A stretch of DNA of 37,025 nucleotides from the IMG/VR virus record IMGVR_UViG_3300025759_000261, positions 1-37,025 of that record. One strand, 5' to 3'. The stretch comes from a virus. This document shows positions 2,481 through 37,025 of the stretch, piece by piece (position 1 is the stretch's first letter; every line of letters starts with the position of its first letter). The notes below the pieces were generated by a model that did no database searches, was not told the DNA's origin, and was given only the letters and a program-made list of their open reading frames with translations. The translations under genes were made by a program, and so were the position numbers.

Positions 2481-3380
2481 TTTTAATTTAAACCAATCAG
2501 GGATTATATGATTCATATTATAATTAGATCTTGGCTTTCTTTCGTTATTTTTAAACTGCTGAAGCTTGTAATAAAAACAAACTTTATCTTCGTTGTTTAA
2601 CCAGTGTTGACGATCAAAAATATTAATAGTTAACCCATTTAATATACCCATATAATTTACCCATGTTGTAGCTCTCCAATCATTCTTTGGAATAAATGAA
2701 CCTGTCTCTAATCTAGAGTAAAAGGAATCTACAGGGGTCAGCATGTTATGATCATCAAAAATATAACTAATTCCACTAAAGTGTCCAGGTCCACCAGTTA
2801 CTGGCGAGTTAGGATCTACTAATTCAGGAAAACACATAGCTAAATATCTTGCTGCATTTTTTAAAGCATACTTAACTTTCTTAAAACCTTTTTTCCAGTA
2901 AAACTCATTAAGAATCCTAGTCAATTCCATTATAGTATATCTCCGTGTTTTATATCTCTTGAACATTCTCTTGCATAGTTGTCTACCTGTTTTATCAGCT
3001 AAGTTTAAAGAGTCTGTTACAGTACAATCTTTTTTAAGATATATTTGAAATAAATCCCTTCTCATTAAACTGTTAGGTGATCTATTATTAAAAGCATCAG
3101 ATCCTATTTCCCAATAGTCATTTATTAAACCCCAATGTTCATTTGAAAAACTGAATACTAAACAAGATGATAAAGCTTTTTGTAAACCATCTAAATCATG
3201 AATATCAAACTTATTTCTCATCACAAAACAAAAAGGATGTTCATCCCAATGCAATCTATGAGAGAAAAAATTAGGATTATTTTTCACAATAGGATTAGAT
3301 CTACTGTCGAATTCTTTTAAAAAAATTAAATAATCATTAAGCCGATGTTTAATCTTATCAGAAAAAACTAGTTTCTTCAT
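2475..3380 (-). CDS. Second aGPT-PPlase-like (putative amino acid:DNA transferase) protein, present only in variant A
   Basis: A 301-residue soluble protein. Residues 150-209 (a helix, then FKKVKYALKNAARYLAMCFP, then ELVDPNSPVTGGPG) line up with residues 177-238 of the 303-residue protein at 33571-34482 (YFPKIITRHSNVYVGSNA). This suggests a divergent relative of the alpha-glutamyl/putrescinyl thymine pyrophosphorylase group, helix-hairpin-helix glycosylase-like enzymes that attach amino acids or polyamines to activated hydroxymethyl-dU. The similarity is by eye and modest. The ATG overlaps the phosphoesterase stop as TAATG. The second genome variant lacks the whole gene, with the junction at that overlap, so it is an accessory cassette. 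An unrelated accessory gene is possible. Confidence 0.55.
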   Translation of the reverse strand: MKKLVFSDKIKHRLNDYLIFLKEFDSRSNPIVKNNPNFFSHRLHWDEHPFCFVMRNKFDIHDLDGLQKALSSCLVFSFSNEHWGLINDYWEIGSDAFNNRSPNSLMRRDLFQIYLKKDCTVTDSLNLADKTGRQLCKRMFKRYKTRRYTIMELTRILNEFYWKKGFKKVKYALKNAARYLAMCFPELVDPNSPVTGGPGHFSGISYIFDDHNMLTPVDSFYSRLETGSFIPKNDWRATTWVNYMGILNGLTINIFDRQHWLNNEDKVCFYYKLQQFKNNERKPRSNYNMNHIIPDWFKLKC

Positions 3381-4123
3381 TATAGATCCATAAGTTCATT
3401 AATTGCAATCTTACCATTGATCACGACTCCACAAGCAATTGCTGGCTTTTTACCTCTTTTAGCATAAGCCATCGCGTAACTATCGAAGTCTATTCCACAA
3501 CCCACTTGCATTCCAAACACCTTAAAGTTTTGACCTACAAAGAACTCAGTATAACATTGAGTGTGTAAATGACCTTGTACAGTTGATTGCATGTCTGCCT
3601 TACATTTTGTTCTTGCTGTACCCGCCTCACCATGTATATATTGAACATTGTCTAAAACATATCTATCCACAAATTTCCAACCTGGAACTTCTAGGACATC
3701 TTTATAAGCCTTTATCCACTTTCTAGGAACAGCAGATGTTTGTGCTTTTCTCATAATTATTCTGTCATGATTACCTATTGTAACAATTGCATTAGGGAAA
3801 GCATCGTACCATCTCGAAATCCTTTTTATTGCCAACTCGAGTTCATCAGAACCTCCTAAGGCTTCTGTATCTGTTTCATGATAACTAGAATAATGATTGT
3901 CAATTACGTCACCTATAAATACAACTTTGTTACAATTATATTTTTTATAAGTTTGAATGCAATGATCTAAATAAGAGTCTAAACAAAATGGTTCATGTAA
4001 ATCACCGATTACTAAAACTCTATTAACTTTTTCAGTTATATATTTAAAAGCATCAGCTTTGTTGCCTGTAAGTCTTGGTCTATAGGGTTCCATAAGTTTT
4101 ATATACTTTTTGCAATTCTCCAA
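3380..4123 (-). CDS. Calcineurin-like metallophosphoesterase, variant A
   Basis: A 247-residue protein with the full motif set of the metallophosphoesterase superfamily: GDLHEPF (40-46), GDVID (71-75), GNHDR (117-121), a histidine in YIHGE (His164) and GHLH (184-187). These residues bind two metal ions and hydrolyse phosphomono- or diesters. The substrate cannot be told; candidates are 3' DNA or RNA ends, cyclic nucleotides or nucleotide intermediates. The ATG at 4123 overlaps the upstream gene by 44 bases; the internal ATG at 4093 (MEPYRPRLTG) would cut this to 14 and may be the true start. The partial copy at 36536-37025 is nearly identical in protein sequence. Confidence 0.87.
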   Translation of the reverse strand: MENCKKYIKLMEPYRPRLTGNKADAFKYITEKVNRVLVIGDLHEPFCLDSYLDHCIQTYKKYNCNKVVFIGDVIDNHYSSYHETDTEALGGSDELELAIKRISRWYDAFPNAIVTIGNHDRIIMRKAQTSAVPRKWIKAYKDVLEVPGWKFVDRYVLDNVQYIHGEAGTARTKCKADMQSTVQGHLHTQCYTEFFVGQNFKVFGMQVGCGIDFDSYAMAYAKRGKKPAIACGVVINGKIAINELMDL

Positions 4124-13841: not shown

Positions 13842-15676
13842 TAGTATGTGTATTTTAGTGATCCGTGATTTGGCAAATTAAATGTTGCTTGCTTTGCCTC
13901 TTTACTACCCCAAGGGTTTCTCTGGTATCTTTTTGGTATTGACCCAGTTCTTCTATAATTCTTTAAATCAGGTGAAACATCAGCTCCTTTTTTTCTTCTA
14001 TATAAAACTTGTTTCCAGGCATGTCTGCAATAACATCCTCCTTTATATTTAAAAAGATCATAAGTGTCTTCGCCCTCTGGTGCAAAACCTCCGTTAACAC
14101 CTTTTTCACTAGCTTCATCAATATCTTCAATTCTGTACACGACACCCTGCTTTGCTAAAGTCATCATGTTTTCACAAAAAGGCCTTGTTTTATAATCCTG
14201 ACTTCCTTTCATGTCTTCTTGAATAGATCCAGCTTTAGATTTTTGGAAATAAACATATCTAATTTTGTAATTATCTGAATCTAAAACAGACCATTTACCT
14301 TCGCTATAAGCTATAGGACTAGGATTATTAAATAAAACTTTTTTAACTTTATCCAGAGTAGTTTCTTTTTTATCAACAAGTGAAGCCGCTACCCATTCTT
14401 CAGGAGTAGAATTTTCATCATCTACCTCTCTAACATCTGTAACTATCCAATCTTCAGACATTTGTTCACCTTGTAAATTCGCTAGAATTTGCTTCCCTAA
14501 TTCTTCATCTAAATGTGGAACTTTACTCATTTCCACACCTGTTTCTTCCTCGGCTACATCCTCATCAACACCTTCAAGCTGATCAATATCATTAAATGCT
14601 AAAGGTTTTAATGTTTTAAAGTATAAATCTAAAGCTATTTCATTAACAGCAAGAATTTTATCCATCGAATCTATAATTTGATCTTGGTAACTTTTGATCA
14701 CAATATTATCCATTAATAAGGTTGCAGTCTCTATTTCATCAGCATTATTTCCCAAGCCGTTGTTACCTTCTCTAATACCTAAAAGCATTGGTGAAGTTAC
14801 CCTATGTGCAACTATTAACTTTCTAAAGCACTCTTCTGATAGGTACTGATAATGCGCTGGAGCATCATTTAATGGTATATCATCAACAGTTGTTTTAGAT
14901 TCGCTGTTATTATTGAAGGCTACTATTACCTTTTCACCACGAGCGCCTGTGAGCTTTTGCATAACGTCAGATTTGATCTGTTGCATTTTTTCGGGTGTAG
15001 GAACTCCATTGTTAAAGTTTACGACTTTAGTTCCTGAGAAGTTGTTTATTGTATCATTGATTAAATAGTCGCCAATCTCATCTTCTAGTTTCGCGTAAGG
15101 TAATCCACCGGTATAATCACAAGGTGAATAATAATAATGTCCTGGTACGTATGGAGCAAGAACAAACATTTCACTTTCGTTTTTACCACCATAACCAAAA
15201 GCTGCTATTCTTGTAGGCTCTTGCCTTCTTGTTTTTACTTCTTCCCAATCATTTGAATAATACCAAGCTTCTATTTCACCCTCTTCATTACATTTTTCTG
15301 CTCTCAAAGTTTCCATTGGAAAATGTTTAGCTTTTACAACTTTACCATTTTTATATAAAATTTGTAAAGCAGCCATTCCAAATATCTTAAAATCTTTGAT
15401 ATATTTTCTTAAACAATCTTTATCGAAAATAATCATCATTTGAGCATATTGCTCCGGTTTTCTATCTGCATCTAAAGCAGCAATTCCTCTACCGTAAACT
15501 TGATTGGATATACCGTTAATAATTGAGTGGTTTGTAGTAGAGTTCAAGTATAAACTGATGAGGTAATTAAAATAATTATTGTCATCACCGTAGTAAATCC
15601 AGTCTTTACCTTTTATTTCTACTACTTGAGGCGCAGTATAAGCTGCTAAATTAGTTATGAATAAATCATTTGTCAT
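13841..15676 (-). CDS. Portal protein with C-terminal Cys/His domain
   Basis: A 611-residue protein. Residues about 1-380 look like a phage portal: GKDWIYYGDDNNYFNYLISL near the N-terminus, the helical STTNHSIINGISNQVYGRG, and the long stem/wing region with TSPMLLGIREGNNG (about 294-307). The C-terminal part (about 430-611) is an extra domain, with RPFCENMM, EDIDEAS, GGFAPEG and KGGCYCRHAW (Cys548, Cys550, His552), then NPWGSKEAKQATFNLPNHGS. This resembles the C-terminal module of head morphogenesis (minor capsid) proteins and suggests a portal-minor head protein fusion. It would form the DNA gate for the terminase. Overlaps both neighbours by 1-4 bases. Confidence 0.8.
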   Translation of the reverse strand: MTNDLFITNLAAYTAPQVVEIKGKDWIYYGDDNNYFNYLISLYLNSTTNHSIINGISNQVYGRGIAALDADRKPEQYAQMMIIFDKDCLRKYIKDFKIFGMAALQILYKNGKVVKAKHFPMETLRAEKCNEEGEIEAWYYSNDWEEVKTRRQEPTRIAAFGYGGKNESEMFVLAPYVPGHYYYSPCDYTGGLPYAKLEDEIGDYLINDTINNFSGTKVVNFNNGVPTPEKMQQIKSDVMQKLTGARGEKVIVAFNNNSESKTTVDDIPLNDAPAHYQYLSEECFRKLIVAHRVTSPMLLGIREGNNGLGNNADEIETATLLMDNIVIKSYQDQIIDSMDKILAVNEIALDLYFKTLKPLAFNDIDQLEGVDEDVAEEETGVEMSKVPHLDEELGKQILANLQGEQMSEDWIVTDVREVDDENSTPEEWVAASLVDKKETTLDKVKKVLFNNPSPIAYSEGKWSVLDSDNYKIRYVYFQKSKAGSIQEDMKGSQDYKTRPFCENMMTLAKQGVVYRIEDIDEASEKGVNGGFAPEGEDTYDLFKYKGGCYCRHAWKQVLYRRKKGADVSPDLKNYRRTGSIPKRYQRNPWGSKEAKQATFNLPNHGSLKYTY

Positions 15677-27877: not shown

Positions 27878-27992
27878 TTATTATATTGATCAAATTTTCC
27901 AAGTTTAAAAGTAATAAACTCCCGGCTAATAAGATCAATGAAAATAAACTTAATGCAGCTAATCGTATTAATTTATCGTAATGCTTTCTCAT
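27867..27992 (-). CDS. Small membrane peptide (41 residues)
   Basis: The ORF starts at ATG 27992 (MRKHYDKLIR) and runs into one strongly hydrophobic segment, LAALSLFSLILLAGSLLLL (about 11-29), then NLENLINIIIGL. It is a single-pass membrane peptide with a basic N-terminus facing the cytoplasm. It overlaps both neighbours, at the start of the late operon. Not recognised; a membrane-acting takeover peptide or accessory holin are possible. Confidence 0.55.
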   Translation of the reverse strand: MRKHYDKLIRLAALSLFSLILLAGSLLLLNLENLINIIIGL

Positions 27993-28299
27993 AATCTAAT
28001 ATTGTTTTAGTCATTGTTGTTTTAATAATATCAGTTAATTGTATCTCTAGACTTTCTTCGTCTGGTATCGCGTACCAACCTTTTAACAAGTGTTTTATTT
28101 TATTAATATCTTGATCTAGATGTCTAATAACATCGGAATGATATTTATGAATTGAGTCTTCGTATGATCTAACAGTTGCGTAGTAACATTCTTTTTCTCG
28201 ATATAGTTCCTTTTCTAATCTGCTCTTCTGCATTTTTAATGTATCAACATCTACTAATGCATCATGCAATTGTTGCTTAAGTGTCCAAGTGTCTTCCAT
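27973..28299 (-). CDS. Hypothetical coiled-coil protein (108 residues), first late gene
   Basis: A 108-residue, nearly all-helical protein with charged heptads over residues 5-75 (LKQQLHDALVDVDTLKMQKS, RLEKELYREKECYY) and a C-terminal helix. It is the first gene after the putative late promoter at 28366-28420, with a leader of about 65 bases. No domain recognised. A structural or regulatory coiled coil is all that can be said. Confidence 0.6.
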   Translation of the reverse strand: MEDTWTLKQQLHDALVDVDTLKMQKSRLEKELYREKECYYATVRSYEDSIHKYHSDVIRHLDQDINKIKHLLKGWYAIPDEESLEIQLTDIIKTTMTKTILDYEKALR

Positions 28300-28420
28300 A
28301 GTTTTTATTTAAGTTATTTTTGTTTTAAGTACTCTTCTAATTGCTTAGGCTTTAAGTACGATATAAATATACTAACAATTGTTAATAATAAGTGTTAAGG
28401 AAATGTTAAAGTTTTGTTAA
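28300..28420 (-). promoter_or_regulatory. Late operon promoter-like region and leader
   Basis: Four TGTTAA hexamers on the plus strand start at 28380, 28393, 28404 and 28415 (spacing 13, 11, 11). Read on the minus strand they form TTTAACA repeats leading to TTAACAATTGTTAGTATATT ending near 28366, close to the element at 2419-2480. The untranslated leader to the ATG at 28299 holds two direct AGTACTTAAA-type repeats (28324-28333 and 28351-28359). A middle or late promoter is probable from position, but unproven. Confidence 0.55.
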
Positions 28421-28455
28421 AAAAAACCCCCTATAAATCTTAGATCTATAAGGGG
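28419..28455 (-). terminator. Rho-independent terminator of the large non-coding RNA
   Basis: On the minus strand CCCC-TTATAGATC pairs with GATTTATAG-GGGG through a long stem with one bulge, one G-U pair and a three-base loop, followed by eight T (28426-28419). It ends transcription from the terminase side and precedes the late promoter. Confidence 0.9.
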
Positions 28456-29070
28456 AACTAATTCTGTCTGGCCGCCCTTGTGGATGTACACGTTCTACAA
28501 CTCTTGAGATTCGAATCTCTCACCACTGTCATTGACTCTTCGGTGCTGACAAAACACACGGTCCTTCTTCCCGCTAAGGATTTCTCCGGCTAACCATACT
28601 TCTTCAATATTTTAATCTAGTTAGGTGATCCCTTAGGTTATTAAGATGCGCATGATCTTGTTTAACCTCCCAGCTATGCGACTTGCCGGTTACTTTGTCA
28701 GATTCTTTAAGAGTGTTTGTACTCTCCAACATCCTTCTCTTACCTCCTTGCTTCTATATAACTGTCGTAGCTTGTTTTTTTCAACCGTTATTTTGACTAT
28801 GCCGCATTTGACATTGGTAGCTTATCCCCAAACCTTTTATATTTTCACAACTTAGTAAGTACATCGCTTCTCATCTTACACTAATGCTTTGTTATATATT
28901 TTTACTTTAAAGTCTTATTCAATGTAGGAAATGCTGTCCTAGATATATTATTAAGAGGATACACTTTCATTTTACGCAGTGGCCGAGGTGTGTCGTTTAA
29001 GTACTCCTATAGATTAGCACTCCTCTTAATGTATTTCAGTATTTTAATGAACATTTGTACATAAGTACAA
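28427..29070 (-). ncRNA. Large structured non-coding RNA candidate (about 640 nt, ornate phage RNA-like)
   Basis: No credible ORF occupies this 0.83 kb gap, and its G+C looks higher than in the genes around it. On the minus strand it begins after a promoter-like element and ends in the terminator at 28419-28455. Helices found by eye: a ten-pair closing helix (ATTAAGAGGA / TCCTCTTAAT, 29021-29030 with 28950-28959), TAGGA/TCCTA (28924-28940), AGAGT/ACTCT (28711-28726), a two-part hairpin at 28636-28667, and the palindrome GAGATTCGAATCTC (28506-28519). Size, complexity and phage location recall ROOL and GOLLD, large ornate RNAs found in phages, some of which form multimers. I cannot verify the family. 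The 69-codon plus-strand ORF here is likely accidental. Confidence 0.7.
29055..29070. promoter_or_regulatory. Perfect palindrome at the start of the non-coding RNA
   Basis: TTGTAC-ATAA-GTACAA is a six-pair inverted repeat placed just downstream of the TTTGTATATT element. It may be an operator for a dimeric regulator or the first hairpin of the RNA. The GTAC core also appears in the nearby AGTACTTAAA repeats. Confidence 0.5.
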
Positions 29071-29131
29071 TGCTAATATACAAACTAACTTTGGTTTAAA
29101 ATGTTAAAGAAATGTTAAAATTTTGTTAAAA
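29071..29131 (-). promoter_or_regulatory. Promoter-like region of the non-coding RNA
   Basis: Three TGTTAA hexamers on the plus strand start at 29102, 29113 and 29124, exactly 11 bases apart, seen on the minus strand as repeated TTTAACA. They lead to AGTTAGTTTGTATATT ending at 29075, the same box as at 2419-2480 and 28366. It lies directly after the terminase stop at 29134, which would let the RNA be transcribed alone. Confidence 0.55.
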
Positions 29132-29133
29132 TT

Positions 29134-30303
29134 CTAATATATATGATAAGAACCTCGATGAGGATTATCTAATTGTGCTGTTATTGCATACCTCATTGCA
29201 TCAATACAATGGTTATAAGCATCAATTGGTTTGTTTAATGTTTCACCATCTTTTGTCTTTAACCAAATATAATTTTGTAGTTCTTTGATCATGTTAACCG
29301 ATCTAGTTGTTACATAGATCTCATTTTGGTTTATTAAGTTAATACCGTAAACAATACTATCACGACCTTTCATACATGGTAAAACAGTATGTCCATAGCT
29401 ATTTAATTCAGCAATTGATTTTGGCTCTGCACTATCCGCATATATTATATTGTCTACATCGTAACTCTTTAAAAGGTTGCTTATATCTGTGTTTAGCATT
29501 CCTTTCTTGTATAATACCTCGTCAAATATAAAAGCATTATTGTATTTGTACATAGCTACTAAAGTAGTAGGATCATTGCTATATCCCCAGTCCATACCGT
29601 AACATAATAACCTTGCTTCGTTAGGTAGATCTATTTGTTTCCAATCTGGTATGCAAGCACCTTCTAAACTACCTATTTCACCAAGACCATAAACTGTCCA
29701 CCAGTTCTTCCAATAAGTAGATTTATTTGCTTTGATCTTAGCTTTTTCTATATCCTTAATAATAGTATCAGGCAATGCCTCATTGTCTTTATAAGTTAAT
29801 TTGATAAAGTCAGTATCTTCATTGTTTTGTAATTCAGTATGTGCCCAGAATGATGAGGTAGGATTAAAGTCAATCCATATAGTTTCATTAGTTCTTATTG
29901 CTAATTGGTTATAAGCGTCAAAAGGAATATTGTTTGCTTCATTAACGTATAAGATATTTCTTCTTGCTCCTCTTAACTTGTCAGCTGATTCAATAGAAAA
30001 GAACTCTATATAGCTACCGTTTGTAAACGTGTACTTTAATAAGCTTTTATTAAACATACCATCTATATACCTTCCTGTGCTAATCATGATCTTTAAGAAG
30101 TCTTTTAAAGCACCTCTACGCAAATGTGGTATTGACTCACTAACTATAGATATTTCTTTGTTTGGATTCTTTATAGCATGATCTATAAGCAAAGGAATAA
30201 TGCCGAATGTTTTACCCGCTGAGGTTCCACCTTGTACAATTCTATTACGTTTGTTTAATTTACTTAGTTTCTTTATTGCTGTTGTTACAATAAAATCATT
30301 CAT
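29134..30303 (-). CDS. Terminase large subunit
   Basis: A 389-residue DNA packaging motor and nuclease. Walker A GGTSAGKT is at 25-32, and Walker B ILYVNEAN at 117-124 with the catalytic glutamate. The RNase H-like nuclease domain supplies a complete acidic triad: Asp238 in YGMDWGYSNDP, Asp290 in IIYADSAEP and Asp368 in HCIDAMRYAI. These match PBSX/phage-type large terminases (Terminase_3 and 6 groups), somewhat short but complete. It would package concatemeric DNA through the portal. It overlaps the small subunit gene by 8 bases. Circular permutation of the assembly suggests headful packaging, which is inference. Confidence 0.92.
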   Translation of the reverse strand: MNDFIVTTAIKKLSKLNKRNRIVQGGTSAGKTFGIIPLLIDHAIKNPNKEISIVSESIPHLRRGALKDFLKIMISTGRYIDGMFNKSLLKYTFTNGSYIEFFSIESADKLRGARRNILYVNEANNIPFDAYNQLAIRTNETIWIDFNPTSSFWAHTELQNNEDTDFIKLTYKDNEALPDTIIKDIEKAKIKANKSTYWKNWWTVYGLGEIGSLEGACIPDWKQIDLPNEARLLCYGMDWGYSNDPTTLVAMYKYNNAFIFDEVLYKKGMLNTDISNLLKSYDVDNIIYADSAEPKSIAELNSYGHTVLPCMKGRDSIVYGINLINQNEIYVTTRSVNMIKELQNYIWLKTKDGETLNKPIDAYNHCIDAMRYAITAQLDNPHRGSYHIY

Positions 30304-30652: not shown

Positions 30653-31102
30653 TTATTTCTTTTTGTTAAGTATATCAACTATTGCTGATAACCTTGTTTG
30701 AACATTTGCTATTTCTTTTTCAGGTATCTTTTGAATTAAGTTATAAATACCTTTGTATTGATCATCTATAATATATTTGCTTAGCTCATTATATTTATGA
30801 GTTAGTATTTGGTATTTTTCTCTTAACGGTAGCATTTGCTCTTTAGTTAAATCTATATATATTTCGTACATAGGATCGTTGTATTCTTTTATAATCTTAA
30901 ATACGTTGTTTATACCGTGTAAAACAGAAGCGTGATTTCTATTTACTGTTGATGCTATTTCATGTAGTTTCATTTTAGTTAACTCTCTACATAGTTTATA
31001 GTAAACAGCTCTAGCATAAACATGTCTTCTGTCTCTAGTGTTGTTAGTGATGTCAATGTTCACTCTTTCATTTATTATTTCTCTAATCTTCTCGCTTGTC
31101 AT
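30653..31102 (-). CDS. DnaA-like helix-turn-helix DNA-binding protein
   Basis: A 149-residue protein. Residues about 24-70 match the DNA-binding domain IV of the initiator DnaA: RDRRHVYARAVYYKLCREL, then LHEIASTVNRNHASVLHGI with the signature 'NRNHASVLHG' that reads DnaA boxes. There is no ATPase domain. The C-terminal half (75-149) is helical. A truncated DnaA-type protein in phages may act as a replication regulator or transcription factor. I did not find DnaA boxes with confidence. Located just upstream of the terminase genes. Confidence 0.75.
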   Translation of the reverse strand: MTSEKIREIINERVNIDITNNTRDRRHVYARAVYYKLCRELTKMKLHEIASTVNRNHASVLHGINNVFKIIKEYNDPMYEIYIDLTKEQMLPLREKYQILTHKYNELSKYIIDDQYKGIYNLIQKIPEKEIANVQTRLSAIVDILNKKK

Positions 31103-31743: not shown

Positions 31744-32069
31744 TCTGTTCCTGCAATTATGTGATCTGTGTCTCTAGTTTGTTTTACAAAAGTTCCATTT
31801 ATCATAGATCCTTTTCTGTTTTTTATCTCTAAGTAAGCGGTCACAATACAATCCTCAATACTTAATCCTTTCATGTGTGCTAAATTTGTTAGAACAACAA
31901 CAATATCACCTATTGCATCTATTATTTCTTCTCTATCATCTTCTAATAATGCCTTTGCTAATTCTCCAGCTTCTTCTTGAAACTTTACATATTGTGTGTT
32001 AGCATCTCCTTTTTTATACAAACCTCTTTCTGAAGCCCATATTCTAATTAATTCAAATGTTTTTTCCAT
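31740..32069 (-). CDS. MazG-like nucleotide pyrophosphohydrolase
   Basis: The start at 32069 (MEKTFELIRIWASERGLYKK, 109 residues) is chosen because the next upstream ATG lies deep in the thymidylate synthase-like gene. The helix-loop-helix metal site is clear: EEAGE at 32-36 and EIIDAIGD at 48-55, the ExxE..ExxD pattern of all-alpha NTP pyrophosphatases. Such enzymes hydrolyse dNTPs to dNMP and pyrophosphate. Beside a nucleotide-modifying enzyme it may remove unmodified dTTP or dUTP so that altered nucleotides are used, or act on (p)ppGpp; both are inference. Confidence 0.85.
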   Translation of the reverse strand: MEKTFELIRIWASERGLYKKGDANTQYVKFQEEAGELAKALLEDDREEIIDAIGDIVVVLTNLAHMKGLSIEDCIVTAYLEIKNRKGSMINGTFVKQTRDTDHIIAGTE

Positions 32070-32694
32070 AATGTCTTGGGTATAAATGTAAGTTTTGCGC
32101 GAAATGTGTATATTCTCCTTGAATTGCATTTAAATCTTCGCACATTGATTCATGCAATTTCATAAAACAATAGGCATCATTACAAAAACCAAACCATAAA
32201 TCGTTGCTTCTCATAATAACCGACATGTGTAAAACCTTGGGATCAGTCTTAAAATAAAACTGTATTGCTAGAGTACAAGGTGTATCTTTCTCGTAGTCCT
32301 CCCATTCTTTACCGTCATATATTGTAATAACAGCACGTCTCGAAAACCTATTATATTTTAATTCTTCTACTACATAACGATATTGATCATTCCTCCACCA
32401 TTGCCATCCATAATTCGAATTAACATTACCATTATCATCCATGTGATTATACCAGATTTTGGCACACTTAGCTATCTCTTCAGCATTTCTATTTCCTGAA
32501 ACATACCAAATCCATTCCTTTTCCGCATAGCTTGTTTTAAAGTTTCTCCAAGGTGTTTTGACCACGAGATCTTTAGTGTCTTTAATTGTAAAACAAGTAT
32601 TATAAATTGCTTTGGTTTTATTTGGACCTTCCTCTACTTTATCAATCTTATTATACAAAGATTCAAAAGCTTCAGTCACGTTATTGTAAATCAT
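32053..32694 (-). CDS. Thymidylate synthase homologue, likely dUMP hydroxymethylase
   Basis: A 213-residue protein with the thymidylate synthase core: catalytic Cys140 in DTPCTLAIQF, the phosphate-binding RSND at 162-165, and Asn172 in FGFCNDAY at the position that selects uracil over cytosine. The protein ends shortly after the NLHLY motif (201-205), so it lacks roughly the last 60 residues of normal synthases, including the C-terminal segment that closes the active site for the reduction step. That loss suggests hydroxymethylation of dUMP to hydroxymethyl-dUMP instead of methylation, as in phages with modified thymidines; this is inference. Overlaps the PLP gene by 4 bases. Confidence 0.8.
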   Translation of the reverse strand: MIYNNVTEAFESLYNKIDKVEEGPNKTKAIYNTCFTIKDTKDLVVKTPWRNFKTSYAEKEWIWYVSGNRNAEEIAKCAKIWYNHMDDNGNVNSNYGWQWWRNDQYRYVVEELKYNRFSRRAVITIYDGKEWEDYEKDTPCTLAIQFYFKTDPKVLHMSVIMRSNDLWFGFCNDAYCFMKLHESMCEDLNAIQGEYTHFAQNLHLYPRHYGKNI

Positions 32695-33584
32695 ATTTTA
32701 AAATCTTTTAAGTCATTCCAATCCCTATATGATTTGATTTGACTTTTATTTATTGATGGCTTCTTAGCGTTACCGGCTACACTAAAAAACCAATCACCTT
32801 CATTTCCATATTTGCACATGTAGTGCCAGCCTTTCGAGTCATAACTATCCTCGCAATCAAATTTATCCGGTATTAAATCAGACAGACTGTTAAAGGGCTT
32901 ATGATAACTGTAAAACTCGGCGCGCCCTAATTCGCCTTGTTGTATATTTCTAGCAACTGCAACTGCTTTAAACTGTGTATCTGGCAATGCAATTTGTAAT
33001 GATCTTTGTAATACACCTGTACTAATCACACTCCACATTGTTTTAGGTTTCTCTTTGTCTTTAAAATAATCGTATATTACTCTTACTCCTCCTGCAATAA
33101 CCAACGGGTGATTTAATCCTAATGGTATAAAGAAAGCATTTACTTTTTCAGCATATTCTTTAGCAATCTTATTAGCATTTGGCATAGCTGCTATTCTAGC
33201 AAACTTAGCTTCAGCTCCTAATTCAATACATAAAGCTTGATGATCACTTACTTCTTTAGAAGCTGGCATAACTAAAGTAAGTTTCATGTCATACTTTTTA
33301 CACAACCAAGCTAATGAGATACCTGCAAAACCTCTTCTAGGTTGAACATAAACCACGTGATTTACTTTTATATCCTTTAAGTGTTGCATGAAAAACTCAC
33401 CTGATCTTGCTTTATAACCAACTTCACATGATTCAGATTCATCAATAACATTAAACCCGTTTACATCTTTAACTACAAAAGGATCAAAAGATGATTTAAA
33501 ATCTTCAGTCAACATCAAGTATTGATCAAGACCAAATAAGTTTAGATCTTTATTCTCTATATATTTTTGTTTATTTAAAAACAC
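32691..33584 (-). CDS. PLP-dependent enzyme of fold type II (cysteine synthase-like)
   Basis: A 297-residue protein related to the cysteine synthase/threonine synthase fold. Lys58 in VGYKARSGEFFMQHL is the likely Schiff-base lysine. The usual SGNxG phosphate loop is altered to PRRGFAGIS (82-90) but is followed by the expected ALAWLCKKYDMKLTLVMPA-type helix and strand. ISTGVLQRSLQIALPDTQF (about 188-206) takes the place of the glycine-rich PLP loop. PLP enzymes occur in phage thymidine hypermodification pathways, where one trims an amino acid attached to the base. Position between the transferase and thymidylate synthase genes supports this. Sulfur or amino acid metabolism is the alternative. 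Confidence 0.75.
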   Translation of the reverse strand: MFLNKQKYIENKDLNLFGLDQYLMLTEDFKSSFDPFVVKDVNGFNVIDESESCEVGYKARSGEFFMQHLKDIKVNHVVYVQPRRGFAGISLAWLCKKYDMKLTLVMPASKEVSDHQALCIELGAEAKFARIAAMPNANKIAKEYAEKVNAFFIPLGLNHPLVIAGGVRVIYDYFKDKEKPKTMWSVISTGVLQRSLQIALPDTQFKAVAVARNIQQGELGRAEFYSYHKPFNSLSDLIPDKFDCEDSYDSKGWHYMCKYGNEGDWFFSVAGNAKKPSINKSQIKSYRDWNDLKDFKI

Positions 33585-34482
33585 TGTTATAATATTTTAT
33601 CCCGTTATTATATTCTATATGATGCTTACTCTGAAAATTATTCTTATATCTTATAAAATCACAAGCCACATCTTCCATATCGTATTTAAAACTGTGATTG
33701 CCTGTTAAAGCACAAAGTCTCTCAAGACATTCATTAGTTACTTTTAAATTACTTCCAATCCCTTTTTCGTTTGGAAATATTTCTTTTAAGCATTTTTTAG
33801 CGTTAGATCCTACGTAAACATTACTATGTCTTGTTATTATTTTAGGAAAGTACTCGGCTAGATCCATTGCGAAAGCACATAAAACAAAGTTCTGTCTTTT
33901 ATATCCTCTTCGTAATAACCACTCGTTACCTAGATCTACAACCTCATATATTTCTAATCCCCACATGTTATCTAATATGTAGTTAACTAATTTATAACTA
34001 TCTTCCAAAATAAAATTCCTTAAACCTTTAGAAATCATAGGCAGTAAATAACCTTTGTTATCACTAAACTTTTTTTCAGGTAGATCCTCCATCCATTCAT
34101 TAAATGTTAGCCTTTCGTTTAGTAAACTATCGACTATCCAAAAATTACCGAAACCATGAGTGCCGTAAGGATGATTAGTCTTTGGAAAATAATTAATCCC
34201 ACTACCACATAACCTAAACAAGTAACATAGCAACATGAAATCAAAATCATTAACATCTGCATATTTAAAATATTCGCCATTGCCTTTAGGATCTGCTTCT
34301 TTTAATCTAATAGCTTCTAACAAACTACTAAACGCTGCGTATCTTCTATTAACAACATCGTAGATTGGAACATGCCAAATTAAATCATCATCAATATCTT
34401 TTTTAGTCCACTCGTAACCTTGATAAAGTCTTTCTTGATTTAACTTTGCTTTTTTATAATAAAGTTGGAACTCTTGTATCAT
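33571..34482 (-). CDS. Putative amino acid:DNA transferase (aGPT-PPlase-like), full-length
   Basis: A 303-residue, mostly helical protein. Motifs are LLCYLFRLCGSGINY (84-98), GTHGFGNFWIVDSLL (107-121), and RGYKRQNFVLCAFAMDLAEY (192-211) followed by HSNVYVGSNAKK (219-230). I read this as a relative of the alpha-glutamyl/putrescinyl thymine pyrophosphorylases, which replace the phosphate on activated 5-hydroxymethyl-dU in DNA with an amino acid. Family call is from recall and context; it needs a profile search. The gene overlaps the PLP gene (14 bases) and the SGNH-like gene (29 bases). No P-loop hydroxymethyl-dU kinase, the expected partner, was found in the window. Confidence 0.6.
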   Translation of the reverse strand: MIQEFQLYYKKAKLNQERLYQGYEWTKKDIDDDLIWHVPIYDVVNRRYAAFSSLLEAIRLKEADPKGNGEYFKYADVNDFDFMLLCYLFRLCGSGINYFPKTNHPYGTHGFGNFWIVDSLLNERLTFNEWMEDLPEKKFSDNKGYLLPMISKGLRNFILEDSYKLVNYILDNMWGLEIYEVVDLGNEWLLRRGYKRQNFVLCAFAMDLAEYFPKIITRHSNVYVGSNAKKCLKEIFPNEKGIGSNLKVTNECLERLCALTGNHSFKYDMEDVACDFIRYKNNFQSKHHIEYNNGIKYYNSVFK

Positions 34483-35404
34483 TTATAAATGTTTTTTTAT
34501 GTAAATAACTACTAGGTCTAACATGAACTGATTGCCTAGCTTCCATGTGATTAAAGTCTAATGGATACGTTAACCAAGCTTTCTGTACTTTATAAGGATA
34601 TTTTGCAGTGCCAGCAGTGTTGATTAAACCATTAAATAAGTTAACTAAGTTTTGTCTTGCTTCTTTACTACCGAAATAAGATTCACCTTTATATTTTCCT
34701 GATCCAGGTATTTTTCTAGATTCATCCTCTATCGGTAACAACTCTTGAATTGTTACATTAATTTCAGGAGTTATTTCTTCTATAAACATACATAGCTTAG
34801 CAAACAATTCATATACTGCTAACTCAGGATTTGGCTGTCGCATTAAATGAAATCTAATATCAATATTACCAAAATATAAAATTAAATCAGTAGTTTTATC
34901 TTTGTCAAAATACTTGTACGGGTCTTTTAAAAAACCATGTAATGTTTTACCATCTAATCTTTTAATACCCCATCCTTTTTTATAAATAGATAAAGAATGT
35001 GAATCCCCTAATATTAATTTGTTACTGGTAGTTGTTTCACATATAACTTTCTTATTAGGAATAGTTGTTATCTCTTTTCTTTTTAGTAAAGTTTTAAAAT
35101 CAATAGGTTCATTAAATGTATAAATATCTCCTTTGTATTTACTTAACTCATGTAAATAATCTAATGTTAACTGTTGAACTCCGCCGAAGAAGTTCCAAAC
35201 ATTTTCCTTGTAATTAATACCGTTATTAATCACCACTGTTTTATACATATGTATTTGTTTAGGGTCGTTTACAAACTCAACATCGTAATCAACCCTCGCA
35301 TTAATAATACTAGCCAAACAATAAGTCCAACCAGCATTATGTGAATTCAATTTAGTAGTAACCTTACCCATTAAATTGATCATGCAAATATTATCCTTGC
35401 TCAT
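34454..35404 (-). CDS. SGNH/GDSL hydrolase-like protein, variant B
   Basis: A 316-residue counterpart of the 396-1346 protein, same length and start. Catalytic positions Ser135 (LGDSHS), Gly179/Asn180 (YFGNID) and Asp283-x-x-His286 (DFNH) are unchanged, as is the IPGSGKYKGES segment. The 23 differing residues fall mostly in loops (about 100-130, 165-172, 216-224 and 266-276). This pattern shows selection for activity in both strains. Neighbours and overlaps are the same as in variant A. Confidence 0.75.
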   Translation of the reverse strand: MSKDNICMINLMGKVTTKLNSHNAGWTYCLASIINARVDYDVEFVNDPKQIHMYKTVVINNGINYKENVWNFFGGVQQLTLDYLHELSKYKGDIYTFNEPIDFKTLLKRKEITTIPNKKVICETTTSNKLILGDSHSLSIYKKGWGIKRLDGKTLHGFLKDPYKYFDKDKTTDLILYFGNIDIRFHLMRQPNPELAVYELFAKLCMFIEEITPEINVTIQELLPIEDESRKIPGSGKYKGESYFGSKEARQNLVNLFNGLINTAGTAKYPYKVQKAWLTYPLDFNHMEARQSVHVRPSSYLHKKTFINDTRVPTLL

Positions 35405-35660
35405 CGTGTAAATTATTAAGTGCTCCTAGATATGCAACTGCATCTAGTAAATTATCTTCTTTGTGATTATATGATTCTCTTGACAGCTTTAAAGCTACCA
35501 TACACATATACATGTCTTCAGCAGTTATCTCTTTACCGGTTGCGCCTGAAGCAATAAGTGCAGCTCTTCTCATACCTTCAGAAAATGGACCGTAATTCCT
35601 TTCTTTTTCCTCAGATCTTTTGTTTATTATACTATTTGCTTTTTCAAGTATATTACTCAT
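35391..35660 (-). CDS. DUF6378-like small protein, variant B
   Basis: An 89-residue counterpart of 1333-1602. The start at 35660 shares the ATGA with the exonuclease stop at 35657. Conserved are GPFSEGMRRAALIASGATGK, AEDMYMCMVALKLSRE and DNLLDAVAYLGALNN, with only a handful of substitutions. Function unknown; see variant A. Confidence 0.65.
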   Translation of the reverse strand: MSNILEKANSIINKRSEEKERNYGPFSEGMRRAALIASGATGKEITAEDMYMCMVALKLSRESYNHKEDNLLDAVAYLGALNNLHDEQG

Positions 35661-36337
35661 GTTTTTAGTTTTAATAAAGTATAACACATGATGAATTTTT
35701 CACGTGCTTTTGATTTATATATTTTTTTAAATAACTGAAATGTTTCTCTAATAAATTGATATTTTGTTTTACAATTCTTAAATATTTTATCAGCGTATTT
35801 TTGTCCATATCCGAAACAGAAATTAACATTGTCAGCGCTATCACCAGTAATCATTTGTGTATAAAAATTTCTCATTGCTTGTAACTCAGAGATATTCCAC
35901 ATTGTTTGATGTTTTTGATGATAGTTGTAAAACATACAGGGTAGTTGTTTATAGTCTTTATCTAATGCTACTATTATTACATTATCCCTTCCTATTTCTT
36001 TTTGTAATTTATTCCAATATATAGACACGAGATCATCTGTTTCCATTCCATAAGCTGTCTTACTTTCATAAGCTTCATTTACATGTTTATGTAATTTATC
36101 TAATAATAATGGTGGTTTATTAGTTCTATTAGCTTTATACTTAGAGTTGATTATCTTTCTAAAATTACCTCTTGCCGCATTAAACACTATTAATCTATCA
36201 ATGTTATATTCCTCATCTAATTTGTTAACTATACTCATTAACACTTCATCAAACTTAGCTTTCGCTTGTTCAAAATCATCTTCCACATTTACACAAGATG
36301 AGAAAACTAAACTATCAGCATCAAACAGTATTACCAT
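35657..36337 (-). CDS. 5'-3' exonuclease / flap endonuclease-like, variant B
   Basis: A 226-residue counterpart of 1599-2276 with all metal-ligand motifs preserved: FDADSL, KYKANRT, METDDLV, ALDKDYKQL and GDSADNV, then GYGQKYADKIF. Many substitutions separate it from variant A, especially in the region after the arch motif (about residues 60-95), where the two are barely alike. This gene diverges far more than its neighbours, which may reflect recombination with another phage. Confidence 0.88.
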   Translation of the reverse strand: MVILFDADSLVFSSCVNVEDDFEQAKAKFDEVLMSIVNKLDEEYNIDRLIVFNAARGNFRKIINSKYKANRTNKPPLLLDKLHKHVNEAYESKTAYGMETDDLVSIYWNKLQKEIGRDNVIIVALDKDYKQLPCMFYNYHQKHQTMWNISELQAMRNFYTQMITGDSADNVNFCFGYGQKYADKIFKNCKTKYQFIRETFQLFKKIYKSKAREKFIMCYTLLKLKT

Positions 36338-36479
36338 CTTCTTCCTTTTTTAACCCTAATTTTTTCTCTATAGTATCTATACGTTTTTGCATTGACTGTA
36401 TTAAGATATAATAAGTTGTCAATACCTTTTCCATTTTAGACATTCTTTGTTGATGTGTATACTTCTTAGGTTTTTTCAT
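36321..36479 (-). CDS. Conserved 52-residue protein upstream of the exonuclease, variant B
   Basis: Same length as the 2260-2418 protein, starting MKKPKKYTHQQRMSKMEKVL and ending in the same TV. Substitutions are conservative (for example Arg/Lys, Ile/Leu) or in the acidic tail. The 17-base overlap with the exonuclease start is kept. Two diverged copies with an intact frame make this a real gene. Function unknown. Confidence 0.8.
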   Translation of the reverse strand: MKKPKKYTHQQRMSKMEKVLTTYYILIQSMQKRIDTIEKKLGLKKEEDGNTV

Positions 36480-36535
36480 ATTGCAATATAATAAACATTT
36501 GTTAATTAAAAAAAAAATTAATATAATTTTAACAA
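36480..36535 (-). promoter_or_regulatory. Promoter-like region, variant B
   Basis: Between the phosphoesterase stop and the ATG at 36479 the minus strand has one TTGTTAAAAT, a T-rich spacer, then TTAACAAATGTTTATTATAT. It matches the 2419-2480 element in position, but the TTTG box is changed to TTTA. It directly follows the phosphoesterase here because the 301-residue gene is missing. Confidence 0.5.
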
Positions 36536-37025
36536 TTATAAATCCATTAATTCGTTGATAGCTATTTTACCATCTATTACAACTCCACAAGCGATAGCTG
36601 GTTTTTTACCTCGTTTAGCGTAAGCCATAGCATAAGAATCAAAGTTGATACCACATCCTACTTGCATACCAAACACTTTAAAGTTTTGACCTACAAAAAA
36701 CTCCGTGTAACATTGAGTGTGTAAATGTCCTTGAACAGTGCTTTGCATATCAGCCTTACATTTTATCCTTGCTGTACCGGCTTCTCCATGTATGTATTGT
36801 ACATTGTCTAAAACGTATCTATCTACAAATTTCCAACCTGGAACTTCTAATACTTCTTTATATGCTTTTATCCATTTTCTTGGAACAGCACTAGTTTGTG
36901 CTTTTCTCATTATAATACGGTCATGGTTACCAATTGTAACTATAGCTTTTGGGAAAGCCTTATACCAACGAGCAATCCTTTCAATTGCTAGCTCAAGTTC
37001 ATCAGCACCACCCAAAGCCTCCGTG
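36536..37025 (-). CDS. Calcineurin-like metallophosphoesterase, variant B (cut by window end)
   Basis: The frame is open at the right edge (37025), so the N-terminal third with GDLHEPF and GDVID lies outside the window. Present are GNHDR, YIHGE and GHLH, in a sequence almost identical to residues from about 85 onward of the 3380-4123 protein. The annotated-looking internal starts are not real starts. The C-terminus VGCGINFDSYAMAYAKRGKK and ...NELMDL are conserved. Confidence 0.87.
   Translation of the reverse strand, partial: TEALGGADELELAIERIARWYKAFPKAIVTIGNHDRIIMRKAQTSAVPRKWIKAYKEVLEVPGWKFVDRYVLDNVQYIHGEAGTARIKCKADMQSTVQGHLHTQCYTEFFVGQNFKVFGMQVGCGINFDSYAMAYAKRGKKPAIACGVVIDGKIAINELMDL

Follow-up and report, generated by a model that had tools for sequence, protein, structure and literature searches.

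GOLLD (Rfam RF02032) is a large phage RNA, in many cases longer than 800 nt, that carries no open reading frame (ORF) and combines a universal 3′ region with a variable 5′ region. Its covarying kissing loop proved to be intermolecular (PMC12286853), and the RNA forms a homo-oligomeric nanocage. GOLLD env-38 was found downstream of a Met-tRNA (PMC12286853), and a report cited in PMC7567579 describes GOLLD as dispensable for phage production in one prophage. ROOL (RF03087) is a phage RNA of about 580 nt with a complex fold that includes pseudoknots, and with no known protein partner. Its 5′ and 3′ parts are intertwined (PMC12286853), and eight copies assemble into a cage that conserved quaternary kissing loops hold together. 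A further case is the abundant non-coding transcript of about 800 nt in phage ICP1, where an ORF-less gap of about 1 kb heads the late (lysis) gene cluster of a tRNA-less phage (PMC7567579).

The window analysed here, the whole stretch of 37,025 nt, is a 37-kb viral record (IMG/VR IMGVR_UViG_3300025759_000261) with nearly all genes on the minus strand and a coding density of 91%. It belongs to a tailed phage, probably one of the Bacteroidota. TerL (29134–30303, minus strand) is of the Terminase_3/6 type, and its nearest named relatives, in Flavobacterium psychrophilum phages such as FpV9, are 53% identical. Between terL and the next gene downstream, a late gene (27973–28299, minus strand), lies a gap of 834 nt (28300–29133), which is three times the length of any other internal gap (75–274 nt). 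An earlier note on this DNA had described the gap as ORF-poor for so dense a genome and higher in G+C than its neighbours. Both observations stand: there is no ORF of at least 60 aa on the minus strand of the gap, and its G+C content is 37.5%, compared to 25.8% in the other non-coding DNA of the window. The note took a protein family in the gap as evidence against an RNA; the sole listed ORF there (28646–28855, plus strand, 69 aa) was searched against Pfam, and no match was found. In the gap, taken in the 5′ to 3′ direction of the minus strand, a promoter-like element is followed by about 640 nt with no conserved ORF, then by a terminator and by the promoter element again. Using homologue alignment, covariation and the consensus fold, we assigned a structured RNA of about 640 nt to 28419–29065 (minus strand), with an inferred start site at about 29065. 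It is likened to the ICP1 transcript by position and size; ICP1 belongs to another phage group, and BLAST against named phages found no similarity.

A search with TerL as the query returned 35 IMG/VR loci. A homologous gap of 390–918 nt follows terL in all ten site-spanning contigs whose TerL is at least 86% identical. These contigs represent nine distinct sequences, because L007 is a repeat of L006 and L002 hardly differs from the window. A covariance model built from them, R1 (108 positions, effective sequence number 1.34, short calibration), scored 105–133 bits on the homologous gaps and nothing else above 20 bits among the other TerL relatives. A wider TerL scan covered 80 loci, and its only significant R1 match, L065, is a contig already in the set. 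The RNA was absent from 72 further scorable sites with TerL at 69–80% identity, where no non-coding gap exceeded 423 nt and the longest gaps had only 20–28% G+C. Pattern scans of IMG/VR with the core and with domains 0, II and III (described below) recovered only contigs already known. A pattern scan of 84,980 species genomes gave no supported match; its single archaeal match was rejected as a homologue, since the covariance model gave it no support. When named phages were searched by BLAST, only the TTTAACA promoter element found matches, mostly in Bacteroidota phages. The RNA is present in all close TerL relatives, with no loss among the sampled subclade members, and absent from more distant ones. 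We therefore place its origin or acquisition, on sequence distribution, in the ancestor of the subclade with TerL at least 86% identical. The RNA-bearing group is one of marine flavobacterial phages. All counts given for the family refer to nine distinct sequences from one phage subclade, whose mosaic history can distort them.

Several other features of the window were noted. Two genes upstream of terL, 30653–31102 encodes a 149-aa phage protein with a DnaA C-terminal DNA-binding domain (Bac_DnaA_C). The genes grouped in 32053–34482, one of them thymidylate-synthase-like, one PLP-enzyme-like (32691–33584) and one at 33571–34482, possibly serve DNA base modification. Of the nine RNA-bearing records, four have the latter two genes and three are not long enough to show whether they do; both RNA-less records compared lack them. 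Genes at the start of the contig (396–4123) recur at its end (34454–37015) as diverged copies, namely 396–1346 and 34454–35404, 1333–1629 and 35391–35687, 1599–2276 and 35657–36337, and 3380–4123 and 36536–37015. The contig may be a circular or permuted genome of about 34 kb joined from two strains.

The folding energy of the window RNA taken as a single sequence was no better than that of shuffles (z = +0.29), and both strands behaved alike. The case for a structured RNA therefore rests on comparative evidence. In alignment A3, which covers the 3′ half of domain I, 96.1% of cells are paired, and changes on both sides occur in 6 of 20 pairs (12 cells), a result matched by none of 500 shuffles. 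Sliding the A3 partners by 1–3 columns lowered the pairing to 28–41%. The earlier note had proposed a covariation analysis of homologous gaps next to terminase genes. In 11 hand-aligned helices (57 pairs), we found that 425 of 438 cells are standard pairs and that 19 pairs carry compensatory changes; on the minus strand, there are 19 G–U cells and no C–A cells. Since MAFFT had misplaced A1, which is the first helix of block B, together with the M hairpins (A2 and A4), their pairs were counted on the hand-aligned strands. Because the helices were hand-picked on the minus strand, we added a less biased test with RNAalifold and column shuffles. For the whole alignment, the predicted strand reached z = −9.0 and its reverse complement −6.4; column shuffling loses dinucleotides and may inflate these values, and the difference between the strands is the safer message. 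The predicted strand was also better than its complement for each domain set. Taken from sequence comparison, the gap almost certainly holds a real structured RNA family, and the large structured non-coding RNA of the earlier note is borne out by covariation across nine homologues together with strand-specific conservation of structure.

Domain I (28606–28944, minus strand) is the only domain common to all homologues. It is closed by helix P1, AUCUAG/CUAGAU, which pairs 28944–28939 with 28620–28615 and becomes UCGAG/CUCGA in L003 and L006. Hairpins M1 and M2 (28792–28835, minus strand) hold seven compensated pairs with 22 cells changed on both sides. Independent single folds of six homologues recovered M2 in all six and M1 in four. 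The comparative alignment also revealed hairpin Pa (28670–28689, minus strand; CCGGC/GCUGG) and hairpin Pb/Pc (28635–28668, minus strand; AGGUU/AACCU and AAGAU/AUCUU), with four of the five Pc pairs compensated. Covariation shows that the loops of Pa and Pc in domain I (28649–28680, minus strand) pair with each other, be it within one molecule or between two. This kissing loop joins CGCAU (28680–28676) with AUGCG (28653–28649) in the window, and the partners change to CGUAU/AUACG (CGUA/UACG) or GGUAG/AUACC (GGUA/UACC) in other homologues.

Around domain I, the homologues differ. Domain 0 (28951–29029, minus strand, 79 nt) is closed by a helix of 10 positions, UUAAGAGGA/UCCUCUUAA. The earlier note had read a ten-pair helix closing an 80-nt domain; the helix exists at 29029–28951, with nine of ten positions paired in the window copy and a compensatory change at one pair. 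L008 lacks domain 0, which has been replaced in L003 and L005. Domain II (28464–28597, minus strand) has a conserved palindromic loop, UUCGAA; L006 and L010 lack this domain, and L008 has a replacement. Domain III is found in L004, L008, L009 and L027 and is absent from the window copy, and L010 has neither domain II nor domain III. Domain III contains two hairpins, may also form an H-type pseudoknot, and shows compensatory changes when L008 is compared with the other copies. L004 and L009 carry an additional hairpin between domains I and II, and L006 has domains 0 and I only. Aligned in this way, the homologues show a mosaic RNA, in which domains 0, II and III and the terminator were gained, lost or replaced around domain I. 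The domain III hairpin loop is palindromic in each of its forms (CCUAGG, GCCAUGGC and GGCC, across L009, L027, L008 and L004) despite differing sequence. The loop palindromes were spotted after the fact; those of domain III, present in four sequences, are as expected of a self-kissing loop.

Comparison with described RNAs placed this family apart. None of 4227 Rfam families, introns, ribozymes and riboswitches included, matched above its gathering threshold, and at E values up to 10 there were only weak, mostly terminator-like matches below threshold. The GOLLD model found no match at E up to 5–10 in the window and eight homologue records. The ROOL model found none at E up to 10, which is a weaker negative, as the control genomes gave no match either. 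The earlier note had named GOLLD and ROOL as candidates, with a new class as the alternative; neither Rfam model matches, and the alternative is the one that agrees with the covariation and the strand-specific structure. With conserved secondary structure, compensatory changes and no conserved ORF, the RNA is in general kind a large structured phage non-coding RNA. By sequence comparison, it is a new clade-specific family of such RNAs and not a member of GOLLD or ROOL. It shares with GOLLD the large size, the lack of an ORF, the division into universal and variable parts and a covarying kissing loop, but there is no match in sequence or structure. The universal domain I lies 5′ and the variable domains mostly 3′, which is the reverse of the arrangement in GOLLD. 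Unlike in GOLLD, no tRNA array lies nearby, although in L012, an RNA-less relative, the slot behind terL is taken by a tRNA-Met gene (14915–14988 of its contig, under L062). Whereas the two ends of ROOL are intertwined, domains of the gap RNA are lost and swapped.

The RNA is bracketed by two copies of a promoter element. The upstream copy has three TTTAACA repeats in 11-bp phase (29102–29130, minus strand), present in all homologues, followed by a −7-like element TATATTAG (29073–29080, minus strand). The latter reads TATATTTG in L008 and L009, which fits the Bacteroidota −7 consensus, TAnnTTTG. The earlier note had credited the RNA with its own promoter-like element. The element is indeed conserved in all homologues, but as a sigma-70 site it scores at chance, with 24 such sites in the region compared to 25 expected. 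A second copy (28364–28421, minus strand; 76% identity to the first over 70 nt) stands ahead of the late gene that begins at 28299. The RNA promoter and 28404–28421, after the terminator, are the only places in the window with exact (0-mismatch) phased TTTAACA pairs. Since the two sites share these pairs, which are found nowhere else in the window, the RNA and the late genes are probably switched on together. The TTTAACA repeats flanking the RNA (29102–29130 and 28393–28421) also find matches in unrelated phages of Bacteroidota (Prevotella Lak, Cellulophaga, Tenacibaculum) and look like a phased upstream promoter element. The two flanking copies could serve as recombination points. The strong terminator described in the earlier note is an intrinsic one (28419–28455, minus strand) of 13 pairs (28455–28427) followed by T8. 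A terminator helix and T-run followed by the second promoter copy are found in eight of the nine sequences, despite differing sequence and context, and the terminators themselves differ in sequence. Downstream, the site is a cargo slot for small ORFs: L003, L005, L008, L009 and L010 have a variable small ORF between the RNA and the late genes, behind its own promoter copy (803–1000 nt after terL in L003, 840–1082 in L008).

The reading that we tentatively prefer is a late-expressed, discrete folded RNA with a structural role like that of GOLLD or ROOL, exerted via RNA–RNA tertiary contacts and possibly involving self-assembly. The RNA would be transcribed from the minus strand, probably late and together with the adjoining late genes, and would be released as a discrete RNA by ending at its own terminator. 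As the covariation shows, domain I folds into P1, M1, M2, Pa and Pb/Pc, with the loop–loop contact holding it, and the comparison of homologues shows that other domains come, go or are exchanged as modules. The earlier note had offered several functions as possible: the RNA might be packaged, form multimers, act on late expression or structure the virion interior. The RNA might accumulate late and act via tertiary contacts, perhaps with itself. We counted the palindromic loops of domain II (UUCGAA) and of the domain III hairpin (CCUAGG, GCCAUGGC or GGCC) in favour of this reading. Counted against the mechanism were L006, which has neither terminator nor second promoter, the window copy, which is without domain III, the post hoc nature of the palindromes and the null result of single-sequence folding. 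With GOLLD and the ICP1 transcript as precedents, the RNA may work as a GOLLD-like structural RNA, though we hold this with some reserve.

A trans-acting accessory RNA and a cis-acting leader are the strongest rivals. The former would be a regulator, a sponge or a decoy against host defence, carried as cargo behind terL. The slot is variable, RNA-less relatives hold small ORFs or tRNA-Met there behind similar promoters, and the fast turnover of domains would resemble that of arms-race genes. However, the whole subclade has kept the RNA, which cannot be said of the small ORFs nearby, and no partner gene tracks it beyond phylogeny; we regard an accessory RNA as rather unlikely. The leader ranks beside it because of the arrangement in L006. 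There, domain I directly precedes the late gene and runs into its mRNA, with no terminator or second promoter between them, and thus the RNA would be a 5′ leader. Domain I would act as a leader or in processive antitermination, as HK022 put and the lambda 6S/Q region do, and let polymerase pass local terminators. In all members, terL lies on one side of the RNA and the late genes on the other, and domain I alone is universal. Yet eight of the nine sequences have a terminator and then a second promoter copy that restarts transcription, and structural selection extends to domains II and III, beyond the needs of a leader. Known put elements are much shorter than several hundred nt, a length that this RNA reaches. 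Such a leader appears unlikely to us.

The position next to terL would also suit a packaging site acting as DNA, or a packaging RNA of the phi29 type. The phi29 pRNA is a phage RNA with loop–loop contacts that is linked to packaging; it measures about 120–174 nt and belongs to a gp16-type motor, whereas the window phage has an ordinary TerL of the Terminase_3/6 type. Relatives with similar TerL are without the element. Moreover, the minus strand has the better consensus fold and its pairs use G–U but never C–A, so selection acts on the RNA, and a packaging element is very improbable. A short coding gene is barely credible and was dropped: a 42-aa minus-strand ORF (MLESTNTLKES...) overlaps the most conserved block of domain I, is preceded by AGGAGG in the window and has its first 24 residues readable in several homologues, but it is not kept intact: L005 and L006 have no start codon, the frame stops early in L004 (after 8 aa) and L009 (after 18 aa), and L003, L010 and L027 carry 2-nt frameshifts. 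It has no Pfam match, and changes in the region track base pairs rather than codons.

No test run here connected the gap family with GOLLD, ROOL or the ICP1 transcript, the large structured phage RNAs whose function is likewise of interest. It belongs to Bacteroidota phages. As it is confined to one subclade and one locus, the gain of a large RNA can be compared with close RNA-less relatives, and the natural domain deletions in L006, L008 and L010 say which part is indispensable. Since GOLLD was reported dispensable in one prophage, a modest phenotype would be expected for the structural RNA that we prefer. It is doubtful that the family is a third kind of phage RNA that assembles with itself into a large particle, in which exchangeable domains would surround a single universal core. 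If it were, the natural variants of 390–918 nt would give particles of different make-up.
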